NCBI GenBank assembly: GCA_018396415.1
Contig: JAGTRE010000011.1
Coordinates: 1 to 40,766, forward strand
DNA from: Candidatus Bathyarchaeota archaeon
GTDB taxonomy: Archaea; Thermoproteota; Bathyarchaeia; RBG-16-48-13; JAGTRE01
Length of the DNA stretch: 40,766 nucleotides
Reading direction: 5' to 3'
The position numbers and the translations under genes were made by a program. The notes under the pieces are model-generated. The model saw nothing but the letters and a program-made list of their open reading frames with translations. It was not told the origin of the DNA and did no database searches. Shown here one piece after another: positions 1 through 8,219 of the stretch; positions within the stretch are counted from its first letter, which is position 1; each line of letters begins with the position of its first letter.

Positions 1-1099
<1,099 letters not shown>

Positions 1100-1362: not shown

Positions 1363-1624
1363 AATTTCTCTTGGTTTAAATCAATGGAAGAGCCCACAGG
1401 AAATTCTTGTTTTACGGTTTAAAGATGCCGATGGCTTACGTGTATTAAAGAAAACATGCAAAATCTCGCTAAATTAAAATCGATTTTGCATTAATTCCGC
1501 TAACATTTCCATAGCGATAGTAAAAGAGAGTAAGCTGATTAGGTAAAAGCAAATTCGAATAAGCAAAGCAATTCGTAAATGATCGTGGTGGGCCGGGAGG
1601 GATTTGAACCCTTGACCTTTCGGT

Positions 1625-1639
1625 CTCTGCAACATTGCT
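1625..1639 (-). other. tRNA-Ile intron at position 37/38
   Basis: Fifteen bases (AGCAATGTTGCAGAG on the minus strand) lie between A37 and A38. Removing them restores a 7-base loop CTGATAA closed by TTCGG/CCGAA. The expected central helix pairs 3 of 4 positions (CTG with CAG), so the motif is slightly relaxed. The very short length is within the range known for archaeal tRNA introns. Confidence 0.8.
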
Positions 1640-1663
1640 TATCAGCCGAACGCTCTAACCATG

Positions 1664-1694
1664 TTTCCCAGTACCGGAGTTAACCGAGTTACTT
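1664..1694 (-). other. tRNA-Ile D-loop intron (boundaries approximate)
   Basis: Between GCTCAG and GGTTAGAGC the minus strand has far more bases than a D-loop allows. A helix AGTA/TACT inside the insert continues into CTC/GGG pairing with the D stem, giving a relaxed bulge-helix-bulge. Cutting after G15 and before CAT leaves the D-loop AGCATGGTTA of normal length. A neighbouring register (1665-1693) pairs slightly better but leaves an oversized loop. Confidence 0.65.
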
Positions 1695-1735
1695 CTGAGC
1701 TACCGGCCCAGTCAATCTTGAGAGTTATGCTAGCC

Positions 1736-1850: not shown

Positions 1851-1898
1851 CAACAGTTATTTCTTTCGATGATGGGCCGGTAGCTCAGCTTGGTATGA

Positions 1899-1937
1899 AT
1901 GACGCCCCTTCCCAGCTGTGGAAAGGTGTCAGTATTA
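1899..1937 (+). other. tRNA-Ala D-arm intron
   Basis: The inner helix TGACGCC (1900-1906) pairs with GGTGTCA (1925-1931), and TTCC/GGAA extends it after a small internal loop. The central helix GTAT (1893-1896) pairs with GTAT (1932-1935) with two G-U wobbles. The 3-nt bulges are GAA (cut after 1898) and TAG (cut after 1937). Joining rebuilds the D stem GCTC/GAGC. The outer helix is weak, so this is a relaxed bulge-helix-bulge. Confidence 0.8.
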
Positions 1938-1951
1938 GCGTCCGGTTCGCA

Positions 1952-1972
1952 AGATGCGATAAAATCCGAAAA
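1952..1972 (+). other. tRNA-Ala intron at position 37/38
   Basis: The central helix TTCG (positions 32-35, 1946-1949) pairs perfectly with CGAA at 1967-1970. The bulges are CAA and AAA, and GAT/ATC forms the short inner helix. Cuts after 1951 and 1972 leave the loop TTCGCAA between TCCGG and CCGGA. This is a canonical archaeal intron. Confidence 0.88.
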
Positions 1973-2068
1973 ACCGGAAGGCCGCGGGTTCGAATCCCGC
2001 CCGGTCCATCACGTATCCCCCGTAATGTTTCAACAACTTCAAAACTTTCATGTAGAGGAATAGTTTAC

Positions 2069-5599: not shown

Positions 5600-6867
5600 A
5601 TTGACTCAGCCTTATATCTTAAAATCGCAGCCATTCCACCAAAACTCTTTAGCAGCATTTGACCTTCCTCAGTTTCAGCGGAAATTACTTCAAGATTAGC
5701 CCCAGTTTGCTCAGCGATTTCTGCCAGTTCATCGATTAAATCCTTGACATTTTCGATTCTAAGACTAGGAGTTGAACATTTTGGACATGATTTGCCAACG
5801 AGTTCTTGTTCAAGTTTCACTAAGTCGACATGCCGTATCGTTTTTTGCTCAATATACCCACAGCTCGTGCACTTAATAGCTACACGAATCACATCCAACT
5901 CTTCAGATACGAGAAGAATTTTTACCAGCCCCTTATTAAGGGCTGACCGTATTTCGGCTTCCCCGTACATTGCGAGACCGGTATCGTGACCCAGCTCGTA
6001 AAGAAATTGCTGCACGAGGTTACGCTCCTCAATGTAGCGAACACTCCTAAGGATTTCTGATGAACGCTCTGTAATCTCACGAATTCCCTGCTCCCCTATG
6101 TAAGCCGTATCAACGACTGCGAGTATTTTCTTCTTCAACTCGTAGTGAAGATAATCACCGTCTGTGAAATCATATTTTGTCGGGCCTGGACCGCCGATAA
6201 GAACTCCTTTCAAATCAGGAGTTCCTAAGAATATTTTGTTTGCGTATTCTCCAGCGCGTTTATAAAATTCATTTAACTCTACTTCTCTAAGCCGTTCGAA
6301 ACGCCTTGCGGATTGTCCACCCGCCCTGTGCTTCGATGGAACCCCAGAAGTGATTTCACGGACAAACTCCAATCGTTTACCCTTCAGTGTAGCGTACGTC
6401 GCTCCGCTTCCATCTATAACTAGTATTCCATAGGTTTCCTTTTCCTTTAGCATCTCCTCCAGATACTCTAAGTGAAACCGGTTATCACAACGATAGATGA
6501 AAGTGTTAATAGGCTCAGGGGGGATCACAACATATATTTCAATTTCCTCGGTTCCTGGACTGCCCTTCGGAATTGCTCCGCAAAAAACTACCAATCCATT
6601 CGGCGGGGGCTCCTTGAAGAGTTTGATACGGTTTGTAACCTTCTCAATCGCGTCAAGAACATTCTTCCGAGTTGTTCGCGATTTAATGTTAGAAGCTGTG
6701 CTATACTCTTGGCGCAGATATGTAGTGACATCGCTAATCTGCTTACCCGGAGGGACATAAAGTGAAATTAACTCGGTTCCGCGACCTTCTTTGGAAGCAA
6801 GCACCTCAAGTAACCGTTTGAGTCGAAAAAGTGAAAGCGAACTACGTTCAGACACGTTTGACATCAC
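5596..6867 (-). CDS. prf1: Peptide chain release factor aRF1
   Basis: aRF1 reads all three stop codons in the ribosomal A site and triggers peptide release. Domain 1 carries the stop-codon motif NIKS (residues 60-63) and domain 2 carries AGGQ (about 182-185), which positions water in the peptidyl transferase centre. Domain 3 ends with a CTSCGY...CPKCST zinc-type element. The length of 423 residues is usual for the family. The start is GTG at 6867 or ATG at 6864. A TATA box at 6894-6900 predicts a nearly leaderless mRNA. The gene is convergent with valS and divergent from pyrH. The presence of a normal aRF1 matters for the nearby intron: nothing suggests that TAA is recoded here. Confidence 0.97.
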   Translation of the reverse strand: MMSNVSERSSLSLFRLKRLLEVLASKEGRGTELISLYVPPGKQISDVTTYLRQEYSTASNIKSRTTRKNVLDAIEKVTNRIKLFKEPPPNGLVVFCGAIPKGSPGTEEIEIYVVIPPEPINTFIYRCDNRFHLEYLEEMLKEKETYGILVIDGSGATYATLKGKRLEFVREITSGVPSKHRAGGQSARRFERLREVELNEFYKRAGEYANKIFLGTPDLKGVLIGGPGPTKYDFTDGDYLHYELKKKILAVVDTAYIGEQGIREITERSSEILRSVRYIEERNLVQQFLYELGHDTGLAMYGEAEIRSALNKGLVKILLVSEELDVIRVAIKCTSCGYIEQKTIRHVDLVKLEQELVGKSCPKCSTPSLRIENVKDLIDELAEIAEQTGANLEVISAETEEGQMLLKSFGGMAAILRYKAESI

Positions 6868-6893
6868 ACATGCATGTAAAGGTGCAACAAAGC

Positions 6894-6900
6894 CTATAAA
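6894..6900 (-). promoter_or_regulatory. Candidate aRF1 promoter (TATA)
   Basis: TTTATAG on the minus strand, centred near 6897, predicts a start near 6871, 4-7 bases before the aRF1 start codons. The mRNA would be essentially leaderless. Confidence 0.5.
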
Positions 6901-6946
6901 TCGAACTCATATATCAATTCCGGTTAATTTTTCAAGTGGAGATGCG

Positions 6947-6955
6947 CTTATAAAA
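6947..6955 (+). promoter_or_regulatory. Candidate pyrH operon promoter (TATA)
   Basis: CTTATAAAA at 6947-6955 predicts transcription from about 6977. That leaves a short leader containing the AGGA ribosome site (about 6980-6983) before the TTG at 6992. It would drive pyrH, the split zinc-ribbon gene and the winged-helix gene. Confidence 0.55.
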
Positions 6956-6991
6956 ACATGCGACCTAAAATGGCTTTACGAGGATAAAACA

Positions 6992-7666
6992 TTGAGGGTT
7001 CTAATAAAAATCGGTGGACATCTGCTTGGACCTGGGCCAGACTTGGAGAAGGTTTCTGCTTACGCCAATCTACTCGAGAAGCTGCAGCAAATGGGACATA
7101 TAATTGTCGCTGTGATCGGGGGAGGAGAGAATGCGAGAAAATATATTAATATAGCACGACAACTTGGCGCCGAGGAAGCCCTGTGCGACCAGATAGGAGT
7201 TGAAATATCCCGGCTGAATGCCAGACTAATTATCGCTAAACTCGGTAAACATGCATATGCGGAGCCCCCAACAAATGTCCACGAGTTTAGGCAAGCGTTT
7301 GAAACTGGAAAGATTATCGTTATGGGTGGACTGACCCCTGGCCATTCAACTGATGCCGTGGCTGCGATTGCAGCAGAGTTAATTAAGGCAGATATTTTGA
7401 TTCGAGCTACAGATGTCGACGGGGTCTACACGGCTGATCCTAAGAGCGACCCAACTGCAAAAAAGTTAAACAGAATCTCGCCTACGCAACTCTTAGAAAT
7501 GTCATTAACTGGAAAGTGTTGGGCCGGTGAGTACGAGTTATTCGATCCGCTTGCAGTCAAAATCATCGAACGATCGAAAATTCCAACTTGGTTTGTTAAT
7601 GGGAATAAGCTAAAAAACATTGAAGCAATTATTGAAGGGAAAAAAGTGGGAACATTAGTCCTATAA
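6992..7666 (+). CDS. pyrH: Uridylate kinase (UMP kinase)
   Basis: This 224-residue amino acid kinase phosphorylates UMP to UDP in pyrimidine nucleotide synthesis. It shows the N-terminal phosphate-binding strand VLIKIGGHLL, the GGGENAR loop, the MGGLTPGHSTDAVAA segment and TDVDGVYTADPK, all typical of the archaeal PyrH group. An upstream in-frame ATG at 6791 would add 67 residues overlapping the divergent aRF1 gene and unlike any PyrH. I therefore take TTG at 6992, which has AGGA 8 bases upstream and begins directly at the first conserved strand. It is followed after 14 bases by the intron-containing zinc-ribbon gene, probably in one operon. Confidence 0.95.
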   Translation: MRVLIKIGGHLLGPGPDLEKVSAYANLLEKLQQMGHIIVAVIGGGENARKYINIARQLGAEEALCDQIGVEISRLNARLIIAKLGKHAYAEPPTNVHEFRQAFETGKIIVMGGLTPGHSTDAVAAIAAELIKADILIRATDVDGVYTADPKSDPTAKKLNRISPTQLLEMSLTGKCWAGEYELFDPLAVKIIERSKIPTWFVNGNKLKNIEAIIEGKKVGTLVL

Positions 7667-7680
7667 CCGTAATCGGGGGA

Positions 7681-7935
7681 ATGTGCACGCCAGATAAACG
7701 CGAGAAATGGGGGCCTCACAAGCATAGCGATGGCGACTAAAAATACCATCGCGCTTAATGTGAAAACTGCGGAAAGGCCATCCCTGAAGATAAGAAGTAT
7801 TGTTCACCTGAGTGCGAAAAAGCAACTAAACAGCGAGAGAATGTAACTAAACGAACGACTCGCCTCTTCTACCTCATTTTTGCGGTTACAATGATACTTG
7901 TAGCTATCGTAATTCTCGCAGGGTGGCCCAAATGA
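7681..7935 (+). CDS. Zinc-ribbon membrane protein (DUF2116-like), split by a BHB intron
   Basis: Two in-frame exons encode a 73-residue protein: 7681-7725 (15 codons, from ATG through GPHKH) and 7759-7935 (58 codons plus TGA, beginning CENCGKAIP). The joined product has a zinc ribbon CENC...YCSPEC starting at residue 16, a basic linker, and one hydrophobic segment (LFYLIFAVTMILVAIVILAG) before the C-terminal WPK. It is thus a small tail-anchored zinc protein of the DUF2116 type. The function of that family is unknown. Without splicing, TAA at 7738 stops translation after 19 codons, and no start codon precedes the zinc ribbon in exon 2. The gene follows pyrH, and its TGA overlaps the next gene's ATG (ATGA), which argues that exon 2 is really translated. 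The family name is from memory of the pattern; the exon structure is read directly. Confidence 0.85.
7726..7758 (+). other. Protein-coding bulge-helix-bulge intron (33 nt)
   Basis: The junction folds as a complete hBHBh' motif. The outer helix is TCAC (7716-7719) with GTGA (7760-7763). The central 4-bp helix is AAGC (7720-7723) with GCTT (7753-7756). Bulge 1 is ATA (7724-7726) and bulge 2 is AAT (7757-7759). The inner 7-bp helix is GCGATGG (7727-7733) with CCATCGC (7746-7752), closed by a 12-base loop. Every helix is perfect. The splicing endonuclease cuts after the second base of each bulge, i.e. after 7725 and 7758. This removes 33 bases including both TAA codons (7738-7740, 7756-7758) and joins CAT to TGT in frame. 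Confidence 0.88.
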
Positions 7936-8219
7936 CAGAATTAACTAAAATTTTTGGTTCACGTGCGCAGACAAAGTTAATTCAGTATCTCCTTGACAAT
8001 CAAGGAAAAATTTTTAATCAAGCCGGTTTAGCTCGTTACTTAGATTTTTCCCCTTCGACCATAGCTCGAGTAATTGAGCCACTCATTCATGAGGGGATCC
8101 TCGCATACGAGCAAATTGGAGGACAAATGAAGGTAATTGCCTTAAACACAGAGAACGAGAAAACCAAGTTGCTGATAGATTTTTATGAAAAAATGAAAAA
8201 ACTTAGCACAACCATGTAA
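7932..8219 (+). CDS. Winged-helix transcriptional regulator
   Basis: This 95-residue protein has an N-terminal winged helix: LTKIFGSRAQTKLIQYLLDN, then a helix-turn-helix NQAGLARYLDFSPSTIARVI, then a wing EGILAYEQIGGQMKVIALN, and a short C-terminal helix. It is likely a DNA-binding regulator; the effector is unknown. I prefer ATG at 7932, which overlaps the zinc-ribbon gene's stop as ATGA and has GGGTGG just upstream, over the in-frame GTG at 7923. It is probably the last gene of the pyrH operon. Confidence 0.8.
   Translation: MTELTKIFGSRAQTKLIQYLLDNQGKIFNQAGLARYLDFSPSTIARVIEPLIHEGILAYEQIGGQMKVIALNTENEKTKLLIDFYEKMKKLSTTM

Follow-up and report, generated by a model that had tools for sequence, protein, structure and literature searches.

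The question raised by this locus is how a short gene, interrupted by 33 bases that hold two stop codons, could give rise to a protein of the DUF2116 family. The window, meaning the whole stretch of DNA that was analyzed, is 40,766 nucleotides long and corresponds to contig C11 (JAGTRE010000011.1) in the genome of a Candidatus Bathyarchaeota archaeon (GCA_018396415.1). This genome is a draft of 30 contigs with 96.3% completeness and 3.3% contamination. We compared the locus with those of genome G003, from the same taxonomic order, and genome G013, from the same class. The gene and its neighbors are laid out as follows.

6791-7666, + strand: upstream neighbor, amino acid kinase family (start uncertain); also upstream in G003 and G013
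7681-7725, + strand: exon 1 of the DUF2116 gene (MCTPDKREKWGPHKH); aligns with the N-terminus of the syntenic orthologues
7726-7758, + strand: candidate intron of 33 nt, bulge-helix-bulge (BHB) type; in-frame TAA codons at 7738-7740 and 7756-7758; homologues lack it
7759-7935, + strand: exon 2, with a Cys4 treble clef, a basic linker, a membrane helix, and a TGA end; matches the PF09889 profile
7932-8219, + strand: downstream neighbor, HTH protein; also downstream in G003 and G013

Directly after exon 1, the insert reads AGC GAT GGC GAC TAA AAA TAC CAT CGC GCT TAA. Exon 2 then opens with TGT GAA AAC TGC and closes with TGA at 7933-7935, and this stop overlaps the start of the HTH gene as ATGA at 7932-7935. 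Scanning exon 2 in frame upstream of its four cysteines gave no ATG, GTG, or TTG codon. When 7726-7758 is excised, an open gene of 73 codons is left. The preliminary description had two exons in the same frame split by 33 bases with two TAA codons, and an exon 2 that has no start of its own and overlaps the next gene as ATGA; all of this can be read directly at 7726-7758 and in the sequence that follows.

The bases in and around the insert, at 7716-7763, form an hBHBh' motif in which every helix pair is Watson-Crick. Its parts are the following.

7716-7719 / 7760-7763, + strand: outer helix TCAC/GTGA, 4 bp, seen in the sequence and the fold
7720-7723 / 7753-7756, + strand: central helix AAGC/GCTT, 4 bp, seen in the sequence and the motif scan
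7724-7726, + strand: 5' bulge ATA; predicted cut at 7725/7726, after the second bulge base, following PMC2738675
7727-7733 / 7746-7752, + strand: inner helix GCGATGG/CCATCGC, 7 bp, seen in the fold
7757-7759, + strand: 3' bulge AAT; predicted cut at 7758/7759

The minimum-energy fold also contained the BHB, but with one A-U pair slid, giving an outer helix of 5 bp and a central helix of 3 bp. The remaining pairs are identical in the 4-bp and the slipped 3-bp registers of the central helix, and the canonical motif and the correct reading frame come together in the 4-bp register only. The 57-nt segment was more stable than each of 200 shuffled sequences (z = -3.3). We then asked how often a perfect motif (outer and central helices of 4 bp each, an inner helix of 7 bp or more, and an intron of up to 150 nt) occurs on both strands of the 1,382,451 bases of the genome. 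Three were observed, in the DUF2116 gene, in the gene for aEF-2, and at a place resembling a tRNA T-arm, against about 0.25 expected from eight first-order Markov genomes, which held two in total. Mirror-image motifs could not serve as a control, since each of them is a true motif when read from the opposite strand; the comparison was made with different bulge sizes and with simulated genomes. Relaxed motif scans were swamped by chance matches under a score of about 35, and no introns are claimed from them. Coding-potential scores alone could not tell true candidates from false ones.

Other kinds of intervening sequence do not fit the insert. At 33 nt it is too short for the catalytic core of a group I or group II self-splicing intron, and Rfam at gathering thresholds gave no match at the site. 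An intein was likewise rejected here, as the 11 codons of the insert include two stops and are not open in frame.

Joining the exons at the predicted cuts gives a 73-residue protein that matches PF09889 (DUF2116, a probable treble clef) at 8.4e-16 and 58.1 bits, with a curated cut-off of 26.8 bits; exon 2 by itself scores 43.9 bits. In an alignment of eight proteins, the invariant sites are M1, H13, H15, C16, C19, C30, and C34, and the four treble-clef cysteines of the joined protein (C16, C19, C30, and C34) are all among them. The splice junction, CAT^TGT, falls between invariant H15 and C16, within the HxH|C..C motif, and the stretch of the joined protein that spans it is WGPHKHCENCGK. The orthologues in G003 and G013 have no insert and are open throughout, and the N-terminus of the G013 orthologue that matches exon 1 is MSKQRREKWGPHSHC. 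Both genomes share the order aminoacyl-tRNA synthetase, aRF1 (on the other strand), amino acid kinase, DUF2116, and HTH with the window. The DUF2116 product is a predicted zinc-binding, membrane-anchored domain, encoded beside amino acid kinase, release factor, and HTH genes. The same intron was not found in close relatives among the GTDB contigs, and none of the relatives examined belonged to the same family.

These results bear out three parts of the preliminary description. Its complete and perfect hBHBh' motif, with helices of 4, 4, and 7 bp and two 3-nt bulges, is present pair for pair. A cut after base 2 of each bulge, which it proposed would join CAT to TGT and restore the zinc protein, raises the profile score from 43.9 to 58.1 bits. 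Finally, the homologues it pictured, reading through HKH-C..C without the 11 codons, exist as the syntenic orthologues.

Could the gene simply be dead? A pseudogene broken by a 33-nt insertion and now decaying, with an incidental hairpin, would fit the two stops within the insert, the small size of the gene, and its no more than moderate conservation. Against this, the invariant residues are all kept in both exons and are restored exactly by joining, the gene order is conserved, and the edges of the insert fall exactly where the tRNA splicing endonuclease (EndA) would cut a motif that is seldom found in perfect form. The same kind of interruption is moreover found in aEF-2, aIF5B, and PyrG (see below), three genes that can hardly be dead. 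We regard a pseudogene as very improbable.

We are instead highly confident that the DUF2116 insert is a protein-gene intron that would be removed by the tRNA splicing endonuclease, with ligation of the exons, a reading drawn from sequence. The interrupted pre-mRNA would be transcribed from the DUF2116 gene, and its bases 7716-7763 would fold into a canonical bulge-helix-bulge. EndA would cleave at 7725/7726 and 7758/7759, following the second base of each 3-nt bulge, and RtcB would ligate CAT to TGT and would probably circularize the 33-nt intron. The mature mRNA would then be translated into the 73-residue DUF2116 treble-clef protein with its C-terminal membrane helix. Unspliced mRNA would yield only a 19-residue stub, and therefore splicing would be required for the protein. 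Given this stub, splicing may possibly have a regulatory role as well.

The genome encodes the machinery for such a reaction. It has two EndA-family proteins, with genes at C10:24216-24470 and C2:137318-137575, one of which keeps the catalytic Tyr, His, and Lys (nearest solved chains 2cv8 and 3p1z), while in the other Ala and Ser replace the catalytic His and Lys; both assignments are our own, from alignments. A pair of one apparently catalytic and one degenerate EndA is arranged as in the (alpha-beta)2 enzymes. Endonucleases of this type accept a broad range of substrates (PMC6379350), and a link between them and pre-mRNA introns has been made (PMC2738675). The RtcB ligase is present at C2:90883-93678 as a single open frame of 1032 codons. 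About 480 codons of this RtcB frame belong to an in-frame insert that is probably an intein.

Cleavage by EndA need not by itself imply an intact message. The enzyme might cut the motif as a regulatory or processing site, with the ends left unjoined or joined only sometimes, so that the intron would be mainly an off-switch. There is precedent in the Haloferax HVO_1309 mRNA, whose 5' UTR holds a BHB cut by EndA (PMC7714728), and a negative regulatory role has been proposed for the cbf5 intron (PMC2738675). We nevertheless consider this unlikely for the DUF2116 gene, as its coding sequence is whole after joining only, RtcB is encoded, and the remaining introns of the genome interrupt essential genes.

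Splicing of the DUF2116 gene would not stand alone in this organism. Five other genes contain at least seven comparable inserts, and with the one in DUF2116 the genome's total comes to at least eight in six genes. Those outside DUF2116 are listed here, with ^ marking the point of interruption.

C3:71148-71192: aEF-2 intron, 45 nt, IIAH^VDHGKTT
C3:71313-71344: aEF-2 intron, 32 nt, EEQKRQ^MTIKAAN
C3:71426-71458: aEF-2 intron, 33 nt, IDTP^GHVDF
C1:121055-121084, minus strand: CTP synthase (PyrG) intron, 30 nt, within the Tyr codon of KIDPYLNVDAGT
C5:38206-38242, minus strand: HypD intron, 37 nt, at MHVCGTHEAT
C3:39644-39676, minus strand: aIF5B intron, 33 nt, REPGEL^TQHIGAS, with one additional unpaired base in the stem
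C3:6914-6931: Cbf5 insert, 18 nt, relaxed motif with a short inner helix, GGTL^DPYVTG

The aEF-2 introns sit in GTPase motifs, and after joining the protein is full length and scores 902.7 bits against the aEF-2 equivalog; joined aIF5B scores 847.9 bits. At the CTP synthase site, the relatives that cover it are mostly uninterrupted, and the match in G004 holds stops. At the HypD site, all relatives from the class with a match covering it are unbroken. The Cbf5 insert splits the codon of the catalytic Asp, and a cut between bases 1 and 2 of this codon is one of two placements that restore it. This insert lies at the exact position of the proven crenarchaeal cbf5 intron (PMC2738675) and provides a positive control within the genome. 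There may be more introns than those listed, as scans for relaxed motifs are unreliable and one comparison genome was used only in part. Two further candidate interruptions were dropped: one on C10 near 18,930, at a masked run of N, and one on C8 near 8,407, which looks like a plain frameshift. The preliminary description had presented the locus as a new DUF2116-like example of a very rare type of intron. The example stands; what was underrated is its extent, with at least five further protein genes interrupted in the same genome.

The number of sites also bears on the quality of the assembly. It is a draft, and 33 bases could in principle have been placed in an intact gene by a sequencing or assembly error. 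Such an error would not place a perfect hBHBh' exactly on a conserved junction, and still less would it recur at eight sites spread over six genes, and we attach almost no probability to an artifact.

Similar inserts are found in other genomes of the class. An aEF-2 insert of 29-54 nt at QIR^NIGIIAH is present in 13 other genomes of the class (L139-L151), and the window's genome lacks it. In the 11 inner helices tabulated for this site, the first four pairs are Watson-Crick everywhere and comprise 1, 2, 3, and 4 pair types, respectively, a pattern of compensatory change. Another aEF-2 insert, at HGK^TTM, occurs in G026. In G013, a radical SAM gene is interrupted by a 32-nt intron with a perfect motif (L291:2576-2607) at SCNFTCP^WCQNHD, within CxxxCxxC. 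For cbf5, judged from match coordinates only, the gene is split into two parts close to residue 73 (the catalytic Asp) in 46 of the 96 class genomes with a match, and 8 further genomes, not counting the window's own, have an added length of 18-30 nt. The aEF-2 genes of L153 and L154 have long, open, in-frame insertions at VDHGK, near the intron sites of others, and these are probably inteins.

Short hairpins in reading frames can also be dealt with by the ribosome. Translational bypassing is seen in T4 gene 60 and in the byp elements of yeast mitochondria, and several short inserts with stable hairpins in the reading frames of one genome could be explained by ribosomes that skip each hairpin, here of 33 nt, without any RNA splicing. 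Three observations make this extremely improbable in our view. The geometry is specific to EndA and is not that of a mere hairpin: in a graded score that allowed G-U pairs, the 3/3 bulge geometry gave five motifs at 42 or above, and each of ten other geometries gave between zero and two. The cbf5 insert lies at a position where RNA splicing has been proven in other archaea. Lastly, many of the inserts in relatives alter the frame.

Taking aEF-2, aIF5B, PyrG, HypD, Cbf5, the radical SAM gene, and DUF2116 together, we think it likely that the class has a true complement of pre-mRNA introns removed by the tRNA machinery, with several per genome, up to three per gene, and repeated gain at different sites in essential genes. 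Because the insertions fall in the best-conserved motifs, a preference shared with inteins, targeted spread is suggested over an origin in place.

The window and the rest of the genome also hold tRNA and rRNA features. An Rfam tRNA gene of 135 bases at 1874-2008 (+ strand) and a tRNA-like place at 1586-1709 (- strand) are both far over the normal length of a tRNA and probably hold introns. Strong BHB motifs in T-arm-like sequence (GGTTCAA^...) were seen at C5 25738-25771 (minus strand) and C17:15155-15186, and are probable introns at unusual tRNA positions. A partial archaeal 16S rRNA gene occupies 1-1098 (- strand) at the contig end. Against primers MCG528 and MCG732, with what we take to be their sequences, this gene has one and three mismatches, respectively. 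It has one mismatch to the Bathyarchaeia probe MCG493, with the sequence given in PMC10477458. A named Bathyarchaeota aEF-2 fragment showed only about 50-55% identity to the aEF-2 of the class.

Introns of this kind have practical and evolutionary consequences. Genes of this lineage are systematically mispredicted at these inserts, such that aEF-2, aIF5B, PyrG, HypD, and Cbf5 appear truncated or split. By comparing related species, one can test how mRNA introns are gained, lost, and spread outside eukaryotes. If the reading given here is true, tRNA splicing enzymes are needed for translation factors as well as for tRNAs.

The closest known system is the pre-mRNA intron of cbf5, reportedly described by Watanabe in 2002. 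BHB introns of 16-44 nt occur in the cbf5 pre-mRNA of Desulfurococcales and Sulfolobales (Yokobori 2009, PMC2738675). Like the DUF2116 intron, they are short BHB introns, lie where the protein is most strongly conserved, and are cut after bulge base 2. Their hosts have a heteromeric EndA, and the present genome has two EndA paralogues. Unlike the cbf5 motifs, which are mostly relaxed, the DUF2116 motif is canonical; its intron is in no relative examined, and is one of at least eight that this genome has across six genes. Archaeal tRNA introns, including those at non-canonical positions, have the same BHB motif and presumably the same enzymes, whereas the DUF2116 product is an mRNA with no tRNA context. 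Haloferax HVO_1309 (PMC7714728) is also an mRNA with an EndA site, but the site is in the 5' UTR and no frame is restored. Inteins, like these introns, occupy the most conserved motifs of aEF-2. They are, however, stop-free, in frame, and removed from the protein, while the inserts described here have stops or a frameshift together with a BHB. As of 2020, the cbf5 intron was the only additional archaeal BHB intron previously reported, apart from that study's own 5' UTR site (PMC7714728), and we found no report of coding-sequence BHB introns beyond cbf5 in the literature searched, which excluded preprints and took in few subscription papers. The DUF2116 intron is new, and the number of introns, both per genome and per gene, exceeds the descriptions that we found in the literature.
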